From NCBI GenBank assembly GCA_030694975.1, contig JAUYTU010000040.1, positions 1 to 64,000 of the forward strand: 64,000 nucleotides of DNA, in the 5' to 3' direction. How positions within the stretch are numbered: the stretch's first letter is position 1; every line of letters starts with the position of its first letter. This DNA is from Erysipelotrichaceae bacterium (GTDB taxonomy: Bacteria > Bacillota_I > Bacilli_A > Erysipelotrichales > Erysipelotrichaceae). Below the pieces are notes generated by a model. That model searched no databases, had not been told where the DNA came from, and worked only from the letters and a program-made list of their open reading frames with translations. Below are positions 30,047 through 55,951 of this stretch, in pieces. Both the position numbers and the translations under genes were made by a program.

Positions 30047-30075
30047 TTGACGAGATTTGTAAATGCGATTATACT
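30047..30075 (+). promoter_or_regulatory. Promoter of the histidine operon
   Basis: -35 TTGACG (30047-30052) and -10 TATACT (30070-30075) are exactly 17 bp apart. They lie about 48 bases before the leader peptide start. Confidence 0.8.
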
Positions 30076-30122
30076 GTATTCATGCTTTAGTGCTTTATCG
30101 TAGTAAAGTAAAGAGGGGCAAT

Positions 30123-30170
30123 ATGACAAACATACTATTAAAAGCGAATGCTCATCATCATCACACCTAA
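30123..30170 (+). CDS. hisL: Histidine operon leader peptide (15 aa, four His codons in a row)
   Basis: The ORF reads MTNILLKANAHHHHT and stops at TAA. It has a good ribosome binding site (GAGGGG at 30113-30118). Four consecutive His codons (30153-30164) sit just before alternative RNA hairpins and a terminator. This is the layout of transcription attenuation: ribosome stalling at His codons when charged tRNA-His is scarce. Named by analogy with enterobacterial hisL; no sequence homology is implied. Confidence 0.85.
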   Translation: MTNILLKANAHHHHT

Positions 30171-30172
30171 AG

Positions 30173-30274
30173 TTTGCGACCAATTCACGGATGCAAGCTC
30201 TTATTGTCATGAAAGCCGCATCCGCAAATCTCTGTGAATAGTTGAAGAGCATGCGCATCCGGCATGCTTTTTTT
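30173..30274 (+). promoter_or_regulatory. his attenuator: alternative hairpins and terminator
   Basis: Terminator: AGCATGC (30248-30254), loop GCATCCG, GCATGCT (30262-30268), then T to 30274. Upstream, CGGATGC (30188-30194) can pair with GCATCCG at 30218-30224, supported by TTTGCG/CGCAAA and ATTCAC/GTGAAT pairs. Alternatively, CGGATGC plus GCTCTT (30197-30202) can pair with AAGAGC (30245-30250) and GCATCCG (30255-30261). The latter pairing would occupy the terminator's left arm. The pairings are read by eye; the switching mechanism is inferred. Confidence 0.8.
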
Positions 30275-30292
30275 AATGAAAGAGGTACAACG

Positions 30293-31549
30293 ATGGTACA
30301 ACTGAAAAATCTGTTACCCGACGGTGTTGAAACACTTTACGGAGATGAATATGCATTCAAAGATGAAATTCTTAACAATGTGAAAGAAACGTTTCGGAGT
30401 TTTGGCTATCGCCAAATTCTGACACCTACTTTCGAATACCTTGATCTATATAAAGAAATGTTTGGTGGGATCAATCTCAAGCAAATGCTTAAATTTATCA
30501 GTCCTCAAGGCGATATCATGGTTCTAAGACCTGACGCCACGATTCCGGTTGCCCGAATGGCGGCAAAGAATTATAAAGACCGAGTTGATTATTTAAAATT
30601 CTTCTATACAGCTCCAATTTTCAGACAATTGGAATCTCAAAAAGGCGATGAAAGAGAATTTCTTCAAGCCGGTATTGAATACTTTGCCAATGCACAACCG
30701 GAATGCGACGCTGAGGTGATTGCCATCGGTATCAAAACCTTACTGGACAATGGTGTACAAAATTTTCGAATTGATTTGGGACAGGTTGACTACTTGGGAT
30801 CCTTGCTTGAAGAGGCTGAACCGGATGAACAAGTGCGCAAGCGCATCATCGAACTGATCGAAAGTAAAAATCAAGGAGAATTGAGATTCTATTTAGATCA
30901 ACGATCGATTGACATACGCTATAAAGAATTGATTCTAAATATTGTAAATATGTATGGCAGGCCGGAGGAAGTCCTACCTCTTGCCCGCGCTTGCGCTATC
31001 AATCAGAGAATGAGAAATGCCATTAATAATTGTGAGCAAGTTTATCAGATTCTCAGTGATTACAGCTATAATAAGTATATCATCTTTGATTTGGGTTTCA
31101 CGAATCCTCTGAATTATTATACAGGCATCATTTTTAAAGGGTATGTCAACAATTTCGGTAAAGCCGTCCTTCAAGGTGGCCGTTATGATCAACTGACCCA
31201 AAACTTCGGAACCTTCAAACCCGCCTGTGGGTTTGGAATGAATATCAATTACTTAGTAGACATTGTCAGTTTGACGAAATCGAAAGATTCAGTTGCTTGT
31301 TATACCGACTATCTGATTCTATATGAAGAGCTCCAACGCAAACAAGCGATCGAATTGAGCCAACAATTGCGTTCGAAGGGATTTATCGTTGAAACAGACG
31401 TACTAACGGATATTGAAATACAAATCGAACAAGCCAGACAAAGAAACATCCGCGATATTCTAAAGATTGAGGACAAGGATATCGTTGTTGTCTCTGTCAT
31501 TCAAAATGGCATCATTAACGATATTAAGGAGATATTAAAGAATGGATAA
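30293..31549 (+). CDS. hisZ: ATP phosphoribosyltransferase regulatory subunit HisZ
   Basis: A 418-aa paralogue of class II histidyl-tRNA synthetase without aminoacylation function. It activates and gives histidine feedback control to the short HisG. The class II core is visible from LLPDGVETLYG through the motif 2 region (YTAPIFRQLESQKGDEREFLQAGIE) and GGRYDQLTQNFG. The start ATG 30293 follows GAAAGAGG; upstream in-frame Met codons lie within the terminator. First structural gene of the operon; it overlaps hisG by eight bases. Confidence 0.92.
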   Translation: MVQLKNLLPDGVETLYGDEYAFKDEILNNVKETFRSFGYRQILTPTFEYLDLYKEMFGGINLKQMLKFISPQGDIMVLRPDATIPVARMAAKNYKDRVDYLKFFYTAPIFRQLESQKGDEREFLQAGIEYFANAQPECDAEVIAIGIKTLLDNGVQNFRIDLGQVDYLGSLLEEAEPDEQVRKRIIELIESKNQGELRFYLDQRSIDIRYKELILNIVNMYGRPEEVLPLARACAINQRMRNAINNCEQVYQILSDYSYNKYIIFDLGFTNPLNYYTGIIFKGYVNNFGKAVLQGGRYDQLTQNFGTFKPACGFGMNINYLVDIVSLTKSKDSVACYTDYLILYEELQRKQAIELSQQLRSKGFIVETDVLTDIEIQIEQARQRNIRDILKIEDKDIVVVSVIQNGIINDIKEILKNG

Positions 31550-32183
31550 AGTTAAAATTGCTTTGGCAAAAGGGCGTACAGCTGAGGATGCGATAAAGTT
31601 ACTTGCCATGGCAGGGGTAGAGTTTGCGGATTACAGTAAAAACAGTCGTAAACTGATTTTCAAAGATACTTCCAACGAAATTGAAATGATTCTTGTCAAA
31701 TCCGGTGATGTTCCGATTTATGTGGAAAAAGGGGCAGCGGATATCGGAGTCGTCGGCAAGGATGTGTTGTTAGAAGAAGATGCGGATGTATTTGAGGTAT
31801 TGAATCTGAAGTTTGGTATTTGCCGGATGTGTGTGTGCGGTCGAAAAGATTTCGAGTGGTCAACCCATCGTAAATTGATTGTCGCATCGAAGTATCCCAA
31901 GATTGCTAAGAATTACTTTGATTTAAAAGGAATTCACTGTGAAATCATTAAACTTAATGGTTCGGTCGAGTTGGCACCCATTATCGGTCTAGCAGATGTA
32001 ATCGTCGATATCGTTGAGTCAGGTAAAACATTAAAAGAAAATCATTTGGAAGTACTTCAGGAAATCACGCAAATCAGTACACGTCTTATCGTAAATAAGG
32101 TCAGTCTGAAAACAAAATCAACCATCATCAAGGAATTAATTCGGAAATTGGATGATGTAACTCAGAAAGGAGAACTTCAATGA
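31542..32183 (+). CDS. hisG: ATP phosphoribosyltransferase catalytic subunit, short form
   Basis: First enzyme of histidine biosynthesis: joins ATP and PRPP to give phosphoribosyl-ATP. At 213 aa it is the short form, which lacks the C-terminal regulatory domain and needs HisZ, encoded just upstream. Family landmarks are IALAKGR at the N-terminus, DIGVVGKDVL, and the PRPP-binding region near SVELAPIIGLADVIVDIVESGKTL. Good AAGGAGAT precedes the ATG. The gene overlaps both neighbours slightly. Confidence 0.95.
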   Translation: MDKVKIALAKGRTAEDAIKLLAMAGVEFADYSKNSRKLIFKDTSNEIEMILVKSGDVPIYVEKGAADIGVVGKDVLLEEDADVFEVLNLKFGICRMCVCGRKDFEWSTHRKLIVASKYPKIAKNYFDLKGIHCEIIKLNGSVELAPIIGLADVIVDIVESGKTLKENHLEVLQEITQISTRLIVNKVSLKTKSTIIKELIRKLDDVTQKGELQ

Positions 32184-33460
32184 AAATCGTAGAAGTATAC
32201 GGAAAAGACTATGATAGAATCCTAGATCGTCTGATACGTCGGGGAGATGATGACTTTCTTGAGGTCGACCTGACCGTAAATGAAATTATCAAGGATGTAA
32301 GGGCAAATATGGATGATGCTCTTTTTGCCTATACAAAGAAATTTGATGGAGCGACTCTTACAAAGATCAGCGTATCAAAAGAAGAGATGGCCGAAGCAAT
32401 GAAGTCTGTCGATGCAGAGCTTGTTACCATCATGAAAGAAGCCGCATCCAATATACGTGAGTATCACCAGCTTCAAAAAGAGAAAACCTGGCTTCAAACC
32501 AAGTCGAATGGCGTCATTCTCGGACAACTGATCACACCCATTCAGCGGGTCGGTGTGTATGTTCCCGGAGGGAAAGCCACTTATCCGTCGACCTTACTGA
32601 TGAATGTCATCCCGGCACAAGTCGCTGGGGTTAAGTCGATTGCTATTGTTACCCCTCCGGACAAAGATGGAAATATCGATCCGAAAATCTTAGCGGCCGC
32701 ACATATTCTTGGAGTTTCAGAGATTTATAAAGTAGGCGGTGCACAAGCTGTCGCTGCCTTGGCCTATGGAACACAATCGATTAAACCGGTCAGTAAAATC
32801 GTCGGCCCTGGCAATATTTATGTCGCAAGAGCCAAACGTGCAGTCTTTGGACGGGTGGATATTGATATGATTGCCGGACCCAGTGAAATTTGTGTGATCG
32901 CAGATGAAGATGCGAATTCGACGTTTGTGGCAGCGGATTTACTTTCACAGGCAGAACACGACGAAATGGCCTCCGCAATTTTAGTGACACACTCCAAAAA
33001 ACTAGCTCTCGATGTTATTAGAGAACTTGAAAGTCAAACAGAGAAGAGTGTACGTCGTGATATCATTGAAGAGTCGCTGGCAAACTACGGGTATATCTTT
33101 TTGACAAAAGATATTGAGTCTTCCATTGAACTGGCAAATGAACTTGCTCCAGAACATCTTGAACTTATGCTTAAGGATCCTTTTTCTTATTTGTCGAAAA
33201 TCGAGAATGCCGGTGCGATTTTCTTGGGTGAATACACCCCGGAACCCATCGGAGACTACTTTGCCGGACCCAACCACACCTTACCGACCGCATCCACGGC
33301 AAAGTTCTCATCACCATTAGGAGTTTATGATTTCATGAAAAAATCGAGTATTATCTACTATCCGAAATCCGCTCTTGACGAAGTGAGTGATAAAGTTATA
33401 AAGTTTGCAGTAAGTGAAGGGTTGGATGCCCATGCCAACGCCTTGAGAGTGAGAAAATGA
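32180..33460 (+). CDS. hisD: Histidinol dehydrogenase
   Basis: A 426-aa zinc-dependent NAD enzyme catalysing the last two oxidations, histidinol to histidine. Typical stretches are RVGVYVPGGKATYPSTLLMN, GGAQAVAALAYGT, KIVGPGN, the zinc/active-site region LSQAEHDE and the ending APEHLEL...GPNHTLPT. Length and start (ATG after AAAGGAG) are normal. It overlaps hisG by four bases. Confidence 0.96.
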   Translation: MKIVEVYGKDYDRILDRLIRRGDDDFLEVDLTVNEIIKDVRANMDDALFAYTKKFDGATLTKISVSKEEMAEAMKSVDAELVTIMKEAASNIREYHQLQKEKTWLQTKSNGVILGQLITPIQRVGVYVPGGKATYPSTLLMNVIPAQVAGVKSIAIVTPPDKDGNIDPKILAAAHILGVSEIYKVGGAQAVAALAYGTQSIKPVSKIVGPGNIYVARAKRAVFGRVDIDMIAGPSEICVIADEDANSTFVAADLLSQAEHDEMASAILVTHSKKLALDVIRELESQTEKSVRRDIIEESLANYGYIFLTKDIESSIELANELAPEHLELMLKDPFSYLSKIENAGAIFLGEYTPEPIGDYFAGPNHTLPTASTAKFSSPLGVYDFMKKSSIIYYPKSALDEVSDKVIKFAVSEGLDAHANALRVRK

Positions 33461-33461
33461 T

Positions 33462-34520
33462 ATGAATAAAAACGTTAGAACGAAAATCGCAAACCTGGTT
33501 CCTTATAAAGTAAGTACCACAAATTATCGGTGGACACTCAACGCGAATGAAAGTCCCGCTAATTTGTTTGACGTTTGGCAAGAAGAAATACTGGCCGAGT
33601 TAAAGAAGGAGAGCATTAACCTCTATCCCAGCGCAAACAGTGATGAGCTGCGTGAGATGCTTGCAAAAATCAATAACTGCTCCGCAGACAATATCGTTTG
33701 CGGTAATGGCTCGGATGAAATCATAAAAATGATTACAGAAGTATATGTGGACCAGGGAGATAAAGTCATTATCCCCACGCCTACTTTTTCTGAGTATTTC
33801 ACATCGGTTACCGTAGCCGGTGGAGAAATCGTACCTATTGAATCCAAAGCAGACTTTACCTTTGATATTGATGCGATCATCGATTCGGCCAATCAAAATC
33901 AGGCAAAACTGATTTTCCTATGTGTGCCTAACAATCCAACCGGATGTGCGATGTCACAACAGGATATTGATAGAATCATATTGGGTACAGAATCCATCAT
34001 TGCCATCGATGAAGCTTACTTTGAGTTCTATGGTAAAACATCAGCACCGATTGCCTTAAAAAACCAACGGATCATTGTTATGAGAACATTGTCCAAAGCG
34101 TTTGGAGTCGCGGGAATCCGGTTGGGATACGCAATCGCCCAACCCGAAACCATTGATTTGATTCAACGGGTGCGCATGCCTTACAATATCAGCGCTCTAA
34201 CACAGGCGGTGGCGAGAGTCGCCGTTAAGAATTCTGAACAGATTCAACAGTTAACTCAATGGATGATCGAAGAACGTAACCGGATGATTGATGAGCTTTC
34301 TACTCTCAATCTTGAAATCATCGAAAGTCATACGAATTTTATTCTTTATCGCAGTGAAAAATTTGAAAAGCTGGTCAATGCTTTCGAGTCTGAGCGAATC
34401 GGAGTTCGCATCTATCCCCTAAATCCGATGTTAAAGAACTGCATTCGGATCAGTTTAGGAACAAAAGAAGCAAATGATGCGGTCATTGCCGTATTCAAGG
34501 AGGTAGTTAACAATGTCTAG
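33462..34520 (+). CDS. hisC: Histidinol-phosphate aminotransferase
   Basis: A 352-aa fold-type I PLP aminotransferase making histidinol phosphate from imidazole acetol phosphate and glutamate. The PLP-binding Lys212 is in RTLSKAFGVAG; LNANESP near the N-terminus, CVPNNPTG and the C-terminal IRISLGT arginine are all present. It starts one base after the hisD stop with only a weak ribosome binding site, consistent with coupled translation. Confidence 0.94.
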   Translation: MNKNVRTKIANLVPYKVSTTNYRWTLNANESPANLFDVWQEEILAELKKESINLYPSANSDELREMLAKINNCSADNIVCGNGSDEIIKMITEVYVDQGDKVIIPTPTFSEYFTSVTVAGGEIVPIESKADFTFDIDAIIDSANQNQAKLIFLCVPNNPTGCAMSQQDIDRIILGTESIIAIDEAYFEFYGKTSAPIALKNQRIIVMRTLSKAFGVAGIRLGYAIAQPETIDLIQRVRMPYNISALTQAVARVAVKNSEQIQQLTQWMIEERNRMIDELSTLNLEIIESHTNFILYRSEKFEKLVNAFESERIGVRIYPLNPMLKNCIRISLGTKEANDAVIAVFKEVVNNV

Positions 34521-35100
34521 AAACAGTCAGATTGAACGCAATACCACCGAAACCCAAATCAAGATTAATTTCGAGTTGGATGGTACAGGCACTTACAAAA
34601 TTGCGAGTGGAGTGCGCTTCTTTGATCATATGCTTGAACTCTTTACGAGGCATGGTCGCTTTACTTTATCGGTGGCGTGTGTAGGGGATGTTGATGTGGA
34701 TGCCCATCACTCCGTTGAAGATATCGGAATATGTCTGGGGCTAGCAATAAAGGAAGCCATGGGTGACAAAAAAGGCATCCTTCGTTATGCTACCGCGTTT
34801 ACTCCCATGGATGAAGCTCTCAGTCGCGTCTCCCTGGATATCAGCAATCGCAGTTTTCTGGTTTTTGACTCAACCTTCACCAACGATCGGGTGGGCGATC
34901 TGCCTACAGAACTAGTTGAAGAGTTCTTTCGTGCGGTTGCTTTTAATGCGGGACTGACCTTGCACATCGCAGTTGAATACGGTAAAAACAATCACCACAT
35001 GATTGAGGCGATTTTTAAGGGATTTGGACGTGCTTTACGTGAGGCAACGCGCATCGATGCAACGATGGACGGTGTCATGTCGACCAAAGGACAGTTGTAA
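34513..35100 (+). CDS. hisB: Imidazoleglycerol-phosphate dehydratase
   Basis: A 195-aa monofunctional dehydratase (no phosphatase domain as in enterobacterial HisB). The manganese-binding motifs FFDHMLELFTRHG, DAHHSVEDIGICLG and NNHHMIEAIFKGFGRAL are intact. It converts imidazole glycerol phosphate to imidazole acetol phosphate. The ATG follows CAAGGAGG and overlaps hisC by eight bases. Confidence 0.96.
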   Translation: MSRNSQIERNTTETQIKINFELDGTGTYKIASGVRFFDHMLELFTRHGRFTLSVACVGDVDVDAHHSVEDIGICLGLAIKEAMGDKKGILRYATAFTPMDEALSRVSLDISNRSFLVFDSTFTNDRVGDLPTELVEEFFRAVAFNAGLTLHIAVEYGKNNHHMIEAIFKGFGRALREATRIDATMDGVMSTKGQL

Positions 35101-35102
35101 AT

Positions 35103-35711
35103 ATGATTGTCATCGTAGATTATGGTGTCGGAAATATCCGAAACGTTGAGCGTGCCTTTACAAAATTAAACATGGAAGTCGTTGTAACAAGAGATATTGA
35201 ACGTATTGATCAGGCACAGGCCATCATTTTACCTGGTGTAGGAGCGTTTCGTGATGCTATTTCAAACCTAAAGAAATATGATTTGGTGGAATGTCTGAAG
35301 CGAAATGCGGCGAAGGGGACATGGATCGTCGGTATTTGTCTGGGGATGCAACTGCTTTATGATAAAAGTTATGAAGATGGGGAATATGAAGGGTTGGGCT
35401 TACTGCGAGGTGAAATCGTGAAGTTTGATGATTCAGAACTGAAAGTTCCGCACATGGGGTGGAATCAACTGGTCAAAAGACATGAAGATGAAATTGGAAA
35501 AGGTTTATCAGAGAACGATTATGTGTACTTTGTGCACTCCTATTACCTAAAAAATGAAGACGCAGATTCGGTAATCTTTACAAGTTCATACGGAGTCGAT
35601 GTTCCAGCCATCATTCGCAAAAAGAACATGATCGGCATGCAGTTTCACCCGGAAAAAAGCGGAGAAGTCGGTGTTAAAATTCTCAGTAATTTGAAGGAGT
35701 TGATTGTATGA
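35103..35711 (+). CDS. hisH: Imidazole glycerol phosphate synthase, glutaminase subunit
   Basis: A 202-aa class I glutamine amidotransferase supplying ammonia to HisF. The catalytic triad is seen as Cys79 in GICLGMQ, and His182 and Glu184 in QFHPEKSG. The N-terminal VDYGVGNIRNV is typical. The start is two bases after the hisB stop, with a poor ribosome binding site. It overlaps hisA by four bases. Confidence 0.95.
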   Translation: MIVIVDYGVGNIRNVERAFTKLNMEVVVTRDIERIDQAQAIILPGVGAFRDAISNLKKYDLVECLKRNAAKGTWIVGICLGMQLLYDKSYEDGEYEGLGLLRGEIVKFDDSELKVPHMGWNQLVKRHEDEIGKGLSENDYVYFVHSYYLKNEDADSVIFTSSYGVDVPAIIRKKNMIGMQFHPEKSGEVGVKILSNLKELIV

Positions 35712-36418
35712 TCGTCTTTCCGGCTATTGATATACGCGATGGAAAATGTGTGCGTCTTGTGCAAGGTCGTGCGGATCAACAAACAGTTTATTATCAAGAT
35801 CCCATCGAAGTTGCGAAACTGTGGGAAGCACAAGGGGCAACATATTTACATGTCATTGACTTGGATGGGGCTTTTGGCCGACGTTCAAGAAATCGATCAA
35901 TCATTGCATCAATCATCGAACAAATAAAAATCCCAATTCAAGTGGGAGGTGGCGTGCGCACATTTGAAGATGCAAAGGAGTTATTTGATCTTGGGGCTAC
36001 TCGTGTGATTTTAGGTACAGCAGCCATTAAAAATCCAAGACTGCTTGATGCGTTGCTTTTGCTTTATAAAGAAAAAGTAGTCGTTTCCCTCGACTGCCTG
36101 GATGGCATGGTTCAAGTTGAGGGTTGGGTTGATGGAAGTGTTATTGACGCTTTCGAGTTTGCCTTAACGCTGAAACAAAAAGGGGTTAAGACCATTGTTT
36201 ATACCGACATTTCAAAAGACGGCATGTTAGAAGGTCCCAGTTTTGAACAATTATCAACCATTCAAACCAGTGGGATCGATGTTATCGCTTCGGGTGGAGT
36301 ATCGAAGATCGACGATGTGATAGCAATTAAAGAAATGGGTATATATGGAGCTATCGTCGGCAAAGCTTTGTATGAGAGGAGAATCGATTTGAAAGAGTTG
36401 ATGGAGGTAGTATGTTAG
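35708..36418 (+). CDS. hisA: ProFAR isomerase
   Basis: A 236-aa (beta/alpha)8 barrel isomerase acting on ProFAR. The first catalytic Asp is in [17 protein letters not shown] (residue 8) and the second in the VSLDCLDG region (about 129-133); the phosphate sites GGGVR and ASGGVS are present. It shares ancestry with HisF, which follows. It begins after AAGGAG inside the hisH end and overlaps hisF by seven bases. Confidence 0.95.
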
Positions 36419-37170
36419 CCAAAAGAATTATACCTTGTCTGGACGTACGCAATGGACGAGTCGTTAAAGGAACAAAATTTACGGATATTAAAGATGTGGA
36501 TGATCCGGTGATTTTAGCGGCGTATTACGCTCAGGCAAGTGCGGATGAACTCGTCTTTTATGATATTACCGCATCGAGTGATGAACGCAATATCTTTTTG
36601 GATATTGTTAGAAAAACAGCGGACACCATCGATATTCCCTTTACCATCGGTGGAGGCATACGCTCTTTGGAAGATTTTGATCGTCTGATGAAAGCCGGAG
36701 CTGACAAAGTATCTATTAACTCCGCGGCCGTCAACAATCCTCAACTAATCAAAGAAGCAGCGCTTCGTTATGGCAGTCAGTGCGTCGTGCTTTCCATGGA
36801 TGTAAAAAGGAATTTAGAAGGTAAATGGGATGTGTATGTCAAGGGAGGCCGAGAGAATACCGGAATGGATGCGCTTGAATGGGCGAAACGCGGGGTAGCG
36901 TTGGGTGCCGGTGAAATCGTACTTAACTGTATTGATACCGACGGTGTTAAAATGGGCTATTCCTTAGACATTACCCGGGAAATAAGCGATTCGGTCCGTG
37001 TTCCGGTCATTGCTTCCGGGGGTGCGGGAACGATGGAACATTTCTATGATGTGTTAACCGAGGGGAAAGCAGATGCGGCTTTATCGGCATCAGTGTTTCA
37101 TTTTAAGGAAATCGACATTAACGAATTGAAGAAGTATTTGAAAAGTAAAGGTGTGGAGGTGCGCATATGA
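36412..37170 (+). CDS. hisF: Imidazole glycerol phosphate synthase, cyclase subunit
   Basis: A 252-aa (beta/alpha)8 barrel cyclase that uses ammonia from HisH to form imidazole glycerol phosphate and [23 protein letters not shown] contains the catalytic Asp11; FTIGGGIRS, the second Asp in VLSMDVKRN (about 130) and IASGGAGT are all present. ATG follows GATGGAGG. It overlaps hisA by seven and hisIE by four bases. Confidence 0.96.
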
Positions 37171-37775
37171 GCCTAATAGATCTAAATTTCGACTCAAACG
37201 GATTAATTACGACGGTGATTCAAGATGTTTCTACCAAAGAAGTTTTAATGGTGGCCTACATGAATGAAGAATCACTAAACAAAACCATTGAGACAGGGCA
37301 AACCTGGTTTTTCAGTCGAAGCCGAAATGAGTTGTGGCACAAAGGAGAAACCTCCGGAAACTTCCAACATGTCAAAGGCATTCGCTATGACTGTGATGGA
37401 GATGCGCTGTTGATTGAAGTTGAACCGCAAGGTCCCAGTTGTCATACGGGAGAAGGATCCTGTTTCTATCGAAGTATCGTTGAGAGTGATCCGATTGTTT
37501 CGGTGATTTCCCAACTTTTCGATACCGTTAAAGAAAGAAAAGCCAATCCGAAGGAAGGCTCATATACAAATTACCTATTTGATAAAGGAATTGATAAAAT
37601 CTTAAAGAAAGTCGGAGAAGAGACCAGCGAAGTAATTATCGCAGCGAAGAACAACTCAAAAGATGAATTGATTTATGAGACAGCGGACTTGGCCTATCAT
37701 ATGACTGTATTACTAGTAAATCAAGGCATCGATCCGAAGGAAATTTCAAACGAACTGAAGAAAAGAGTTAAGTAA
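37167..37775 (+). CDS. hisIE: Bifunctional phosphoribosyl-AMP cyclohydrolase / phosphoribosyl-ATP pyrophosphatase
   Basis: A 202-aa fusion. The HisI domain (about residues 1-105) carries the zinc/magnesium residues in [20 protein letters not shown] and GEGSCFY. The HisE domain (about 110-200) shows the helical [15 protein letters not shown] and ETADLAYH motifs. It performs steps two and three of the pathway. Last gene of the operon. A histidinol-phosphatase gene is absent from the operon and must lie elsewhere. Confidence 0.95.
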
Positions 37776-55454: not shown

Positions 55455-55580
55455 TTTCAAGTTCGGATTTACGGGCAATGTTGTTTATTTGACTCCCGTT
55501 TGACGACATCCGCTGCCGAAGAGGCATCCGCCGAAATTTCGATACTCCTCTTTCCTCGTCACATTTTGTCTGGCGCTTTT
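55455..55580 (-). ncRNA. glmS ribozyme/riboswitch
   Basis: On the leftward strand AAAGCGCCAGAC contains the cleavage site just before GCGCC (at about 55576-55577). GACGAGGA, then a stem-loop with TATCGAAATTTCGGCGGATG, form the catalytic core. ACGGGAGTC...TTGCCCGT forms the 3' pseudoknot stem. These match the conserved glmS ribozyme core as I know it. When glucosamine 6-phosphate binds, the mRNA cleaves itself and is degraded, giving feedback on GlmS. Confidence 0.9.
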
Positions 55581-55626
55581 AATTTTAATTTTGAAGTTGC
55601 TTAAAGCATACCCCCTTTACTAATTT

Positions 55627-55700: not shown

Positions 55701-55777
55701 CGGGACGTAGCACAGCTTGGTAGTGCACTACCTTGGGGTGGTAGGGGTCGCGCGTTCAAATCGCGTCGTTCCGACCA
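55701..55777 (+). tRNA. tRNA-Pro (anticodon GGG)
   Basis: Acceptor arms CGGGACG and CGTTCCG with encoded CCA. The anticodon stem CTACC/GGTAG encloses TTGGGGT, giving anticodon GGG at 55735-55737. A -10 TATAAT at 55684-55689 is just upstream. First of three clustered tRNA genes. Confidence 0.93.
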
Positions 55778-55780
55778 GAT

Positions 55781-55856
55781 GCGGCCGTAGCTCAGGGGAT
55801 AGAGCGAGCGCCTCCTAAGCGCTAGGTCATAGGTTCAATTCCTATCGGTCGCGCCA
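55781..55856 (+). tRNA. tRNA-Arg (anticodon CCT)
   Basis: Acceptor arms GCGGCCG and CGGTCGC with encoded CCA. Anticodon stem AGCGC/GCGCT, anticodon CCT at 55814-55816 reading codon AGG. It lies three bases after tRNA-Pro. Confidence 0.94.
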
Positions 55857-55868
55857 AAATAACCCCAT

Positions 55869-55951
55869 GCACCAGTGGCGAAACTGGCAGACGCGCACGC
55901 TTGAGGGGCGTGTGGGCAACCGTACGGGTTCGAGTCCCGTCTGGTGCACCA
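55869..55951 (+). tRNA. tRNA-Leu (anticodon GAG)
   Basis: Class II tRNA of 83 bases with a variable arm and encoded CCA. Acceptor arms GCACCAG and CTGGTGC. Anticodon stem CACGC/GCGTG, anticodon GAG at 55903-55905. Last of the three clustered tRNA genes. Confidence 0.93.

Follow-up and report, generated by a model that had tools for sequence, protein, structure and literature searches.

In other genera of the Erysipelotrichaceae the histidine biosynthetic operon is governed by T-box(His) leaders (RF00230). What governs the same operon in the stretch of 64,000 nucleotides from an Erysipelotrichaceae bacterium that was analysed here (the window)? The RF00230 model detects a T-box before hisZ at 10/10 loci of the other genera of the family and has no match at the window's hisZ leader, where the Rfam search returned nothing; the gathering score of the His_leader model (RF00514) was reached neither in the window nor in its relatives. 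The sequence elements were identified, their conservation was traced and their pairings were compared in compatibility and energy; from this we infer ribosome stalling, termination and repressor binding. The leader very probably controls the his operon as a ribosome-mediated transcription attenuator, with probable HisR/YerC repression in addition. The features, numbered on the window, are as follows.

30047–30075, forward strand: promoter read from the sequence, TTGACG (30047–30052) and TATACT (30070–30075) with a 17-nt spacer between them
30091–30110, forward strand: putative HisR-type operator tgcTTTATCGTAGTAAAgta, at or just after the predicted transcription start
about 30113–30118, forward strand: SD GAGGGG, from the sequence
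30123–30170, forward strand: 15-codon ORF of the leader peptide MTNILLKANAHHHHT with its stop codon, His codons at 30153–30164
30144–30152, forward strand: segment 0, leader codons GCGAATGCT, a predicted pairing segment placed from the ribosome-free folds of the four relatives (L002–L005)
30171–30181, forward strand: segment 1 AGTTTGCGACC, invariant in the genus, beginning 6 nt past the final His codon
30188–30200, forward strand: segment 2 CGGATGCAAGCTC, invariant in the genus, partner of segment 1 or 3
30215–30233, forward strand: segments 3 and 4 (GCCGCATCCGCA ... CTCT), the antiterminator 5' side according to pair conservation and stall folding
30245–30274, forward strand: intrinsic terminator (segments 5:6) with arms AAGAGCATGC (30245–30254) and GCATGCTTTT (30262–30271), loop GCATCCG (30255–30261) and a U-tract ending at 30274; its 5' arm and loop are the antiterminator 3' side
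30293–31549, forward strand: hisZ, first gene of the his operon (ATG at 30293; TIGR00443, 287.7 bits, above the cut-off)
31542–37775, forward strand: the remaining his operon from the ORF list, which we take by sequence to be hisG, hisD, hisC, hisB, hisH, hisA, hisF and hisIE

The promoter, the 15-codon ORF, the alternative stems and the terminator before hisZ described in the initial annotation were all found in their places. The short ORF carries a run of codons for the regulatory amino acid, as leader-peptide attenuators do, and an intrinsic terminator lies between it and the first structural gene, hisZ; the window contains a single run of four CAY codons, with 0.2 expected by chance. The members of the genus were located by a HisZ search and included uncultured Erysipelotrichaceae OKU21, HGW-Firmicutes-10 and HGW-Firmicutes-19. 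Five genus genomes with the region assembled were counted, the window's genome included, while G004 (a match at the hisS level only) and G006 (contig end within hisZ) were uninformative. The promoter with its 17-nt spacing, the His4–5 leader, the near-invariant post-leader block and the terminator are present in 5/5 of these members, and the alignment of the hisZ leaders gave HHHH(H)T in 5/5, which supports the original proposal of a His-codon leader attenuator of the his operon. Conservation in this region peaks in the non-coding block that follows the stop codon, and the leader codons preceding the His run vary far more; the block occurs once per genus genome, and an exact-pattern search of the order's 309 other genomes did not find it. 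There is almost no covariation among the five close genus sequences, half of the shuffles reaching the observed values, and covariation within the genus is too scarce to serve as evidence alone.

We propose that when His-tRNA is scarce the ribosome would wait in the His run and leave segment 1 free; helix 1:2 would then form, segments 3 and 4 would pair with the 5' arm and loop of the terminator, and the his operon would be read through. When His-tRNA is plentiful the ribosome would move past and cover segment 1, helix 2:3 would form and block the antiterminator, and the terminator would end transcription. If no ribosome is present, segment 0 would tend to hold segment 3, again favouring termination; such holding was seen in the ribosome-free folds of L002–L005 and more weakly in the window. 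A HisR/YerC protein bound at 30091–30110 would probably repress the same promoter.

The ensemble of each leader was folded with the footprint of a ribosome at each His codon or the stop codon left out. In L002–L005 a stall at any His codon except the last gave helix 1:2 together with the antiterminator, the 5' side of which had a high pairing probability under stall, and a footprint at the stop codon raised 2:3 and lowered the antiterminator, clearly in L003, L004 and L005 and partially in L002. In the window's copy segment 2 can form, with the ribosome at the stop codon, a genome-specific pairing with the terminator loop. A metric used earlier, pairing of the terminator 5' arm with upstream sequence before the 3' arm is made, discriminated none of the leaders, that of E. 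coli his among them, and was given up. The stem-neutral test measures the energy cost of lacking the terminator with no antiterminator stem named, with 150 shuffles for each leader. The energy advantage of the terminator was lower under stall, in kcal/mol, in L002 (0.2 vs 3.7), L003 (3.8 vs 7.1), L004 (1.1 vs 7.3) and L005 (1.2 vs 5.2), and the switch was equalled by 0/150, 5/150, 0/150 and 3/150 shuffles, respectively. In the window's copy the switch is the weakest, 1.2 kcal/mol, and is equalled by 44/150 shuffles; overall the stall lowers the advantage in 5/5 leaders, beyond nearly all shuffles in four. The sign of the switch is robust to footprint offsets of 11–18, except that the window's copy loses it at 18. 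On the same metric 34/150 shuffles equal the proven E. coli his attenuator, and because that attenuator is not separated from its shuffles the equilibrium test is insensitive and failing it says little; equilibrium folding leaves kinetics out of account. Masked folding, suggested at the outset as a check, reveals a mutually exclusive antiterminator dependent on ribosome position in L002–L005 and a weak effect in the window's copy.

The antiterminator had been thought to reuse one segment against two identical 7-mers. The 7-mers are indeed there, CGGATGC at 30188–30194 and GCATCCG at 30218–30224 and 30255–30261, and the pairing of CGGATGC with the GCATCCG at 30218 corresponds to helix 2:3, which every relative preserves, three of them with a G-U pair. 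The second 7-mer is unconserved: the terminator loops of L002–L005 read GCAGCTG, TGTTCCG, TGTACCG and GCAACCG, and none pairs fully with CGGATGC. Judged from these alignments, 30188:30218 is the conserved anti-antiterminator and 30188:30255 is peculiar to the window's genome. The conserved antiterminator pairs 30215–30233 with 30246–30263 in three parts, GCCG 30215–30218 with CGGC 30260–30263, CGCA 30223–30226 with TGCG 30252–30255 (GCA:TGC in 5/5), and CTCT 30230–30233 with AGAG 30246–30249, the last being CTCA:TGAG in two relatives, a two-sided change. In the genus alignment the pairs of the antitermination state are kept in 99% of cells, with one two-sided change.

The comparison was carried beyond the genus with a covariance model built from the five genus leaders (f1, f2 and f14 are anonymous family labels; f14 is of the same class and f2 is another family of the same order). 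The model matches the f14 his leaders L101, L102 and L104 with 31–41 bits for the gene-proximal units, and f2 his leaders with up to 28 bits (E 2.8e-5); a weak match in the f2 genome G041 (L103) was discarded as not being a his leader. Across the genus, f14 and f2 helix 1:2 reads AGUUUG:CAAGCU, GGUUUG:CAAGCC, CGGUUUG:CAAACCG or GGGUU:AGCCC, and helix 2:3 reads GGAUGC:GCAU[U/C]C, GAUACAAGC:GCUUGUAUC, GGAUGCAAAC:GUUUGCAUCC or GAUACAGC:GCUGUAUC. Both helices are preserved by two-sided changes in f14 and f2. Helix 1:2 starts 4–7 nt past the last His codon in the genus and f14 and 8–11 nt past it in f2, and relative to the first base of the stop codon its start in f14 falls anywhere between 14 nt upstream and 7 nt downstream; a spacing from the His run to segment 1 that stays within 4–11 nt while the stop floats is what would be expected if the His-stalled ribosome must leave segment 1 free. 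The his operon of f14 is preceded by two complete tandem His-leader attenuators, neither of which shares its His leader, stems or terminator with the other:

L101, 1320–1480 and 1501–1655: tandem units
L104, 1319–1479 and 1501–1652: tandem units
L102, 1314–1477 and 1501–1646: tandem units

The initial annotation had missed one element of this promoter, the HisR-type operator. The predicted operator matches 11/14 positions of the common Firmicutes HisR consensus cacTTTAnnnnnnTAAAgtg (PMC9413887), with 11–13/14 at the same place in 5/5 genus members; it is conserved in L002, L003 and L005 and has one core mismatch in L004. A PF01371 protein is found in 6/7 genus genomes, that of the window's genome belonging to the YerC/YecD family (TIGR02531, 82 bits), and a motif match near the promoter is accompanied by a HisR/YerC protein in the genome, as at HisR-regulated promoters. 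In the genus mate G004 the PF01371 gene is followed by CTTTACCGTGATAAAG and then by genes read as an amino-acid ABC transporter, a typical HisR target (PMC9413887), and the Megasphaera his loci, listed as HisR targets (PMC9413887), have TACTTTACCAAGATAAAGCG upstream of hisZ. The operator core shows no genome-wide enrichment in the genus (4 in G000 vs 13 for the reversed control), and what supports the operator is therefore its position, its conservation and its likeness to the published motif. The palindrome at 30091–30110 could instead be a 5' RNA hairpin. At 30085–30108 a single right half TAAAG serves two left half-sites CTTTA spaced at 8 bases, an arrangement resembling tandem TrpR sites with their 8-base stagger.

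The scheme of the initial annotation, in which the antiterminator forms between CGGATGC at 30188 and the GCATCCG of the terminator loop (30255), we now consider improbable. Both 7-mers are present in the window, and there the loop pairing together with GCUC:GAGC has an ensemble probability of 0.28–0.95 before the terminator is complete; however, the loop sequence is unconserved, in each of the four relatives the loop pairing is either missing or a minor one that reaches no more than 0.24, and in the window it is strongest with the ribosome at the stop codon, which is the wrong sign for histidine control. Very improbable, too, is a trp-like switch in which the stalled ribosome masks segment 1 and frees segment 2 as the antiterminator, 1:2 being the terminating state. 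Although 1:2 and the terminator are compatible and coexist in ribosome-free folds, segment 1 starts 4–11 nt past the last His codon in the genus, f14 and f2, at or near the edge of the footprint even for a stall at the last His codon, and the folding sign is opposite to such a switch in 5/5 leaders; masking of segment 1 was rejected on this spacing and sign.

It is also conceivable that HisR at the promoter is the sole regulation, with the leader either a remnant or a terminator that acts constitutively, as the genus has both the HisR-type site and a YerC/HisR protein. We find this hardly credible, since the non-coding block past the leader is conserved far above the leader codons and the His runs are retained in every copy. 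Because the genus has a conserved HisR-type operator in the promoter and a YerC/HisR-family protein, dual control of its his operon seems likely: HisR would act on an operator in the initially transcribed region and the His-leader attenuator just downstream of it, an arrangement that would be trp-like and undescribed for histidine in Bacillota in the literature found, with an attenuator family apparently shared with two families of the class and in tandem in one. In the E. coli trp operon the TrpR repressor and a leader attenuator control one promoter; the window's locus likewise would join a TrpR-superfamily repressor to leader attenuation at one promoter, the system here being that of histidine and the repressor a predicted one.

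The initial annotation had regarded His-leader attenuation as unusual for Bacillota, but His leader peptides before hisZ were already reported for Bacilli in 2010 (PMC2965389) and for Erysipelotrichales in 2022 (PMC9413887). The hisZ / hisS* leaders of Bacilli described by Naville and Gautheret 2010 consist of a His-codon ORF and an attenuator before hisZ and replace T-boxes, as here; they belong to another lineage, and the likeness is one of description, not of sequence (PMC2965389). The candidates of Ashniev et al. 2022 lie in front of his operons and resemble the window's leader in that a short leader with 3–5 His codons is followed at once by alternative hairpins and a terminator (PMC9413887). 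The f2 loci fit that description and match our genus model; f2 probably contains the species of Ashniev et al., and the stems were compared on the f2 loci alone. Ashniev et al. 2022 reported attenuators only in lineages that have neither HisR nor His T-boxes, and in 20 Erysipelotrichales they reported no HisR (PMC9413887); unlike their candidates, the window's genus has a HisR-type site and a YerC/HisR gene. The survey of 2022 confined its search for His leaders to cases lacking both HisR and T-box control, and by this design it would have missed a double arrangement (PMC9413887). The window's attenuator appears to be a further member of the kind predicted in 2010 and 2022, and the HisR site, if confirmed, would be its novel feature. 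If true, the combination would show that attenuator and repressor need not be alternatives, contrary to what is assumed in the current evolutionary scenario (PMC9413887).

In enterobacterial hisL (RF00514), as here, the position of the ribosome on a His-rich leader picks the terminator or the antiterminator; unlike here, the first pairing segment in hisL of E. coli MG1655 appears, from our reading of its sequence, to overlap the last His codons. The sensor would be the ribosome at the window's leader vs a tRNA-binding RNA in T-box(His). Leader-peptide attenuation requires a ribosome that stays close behind RNA polymerase. There are doubts that it does so in Bacillota such as B. subtilis, where transcription may outrun translation (PMC7858274), and this counts against ribosome-mediated attenuation; a conserved attenuator family would offer a natural test of transcription–translation coupling in Bacillota.

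In G000 a T-box lies directly ahead of a hisS homologue (contig C24, 271195–272604, L061); the genome has 14 T-boxes above the cut-off in all, and thus uses T-boxes elsewhere, not on the his biosynthetic operon. The window's HisZ (30293–31549) is only about 30% identical to its counterparts in the family's other genera and 32–36% identical to HisZ of Negativicutes, and several Negativicutes hisZ loci bear similar HisR sites; the his operon of the window is possibly a transferred one. A glmS ribozyme (55461–55588, minus strand, 62 bits) adjoins a tRNA cluster at 55701–55948 of the window.
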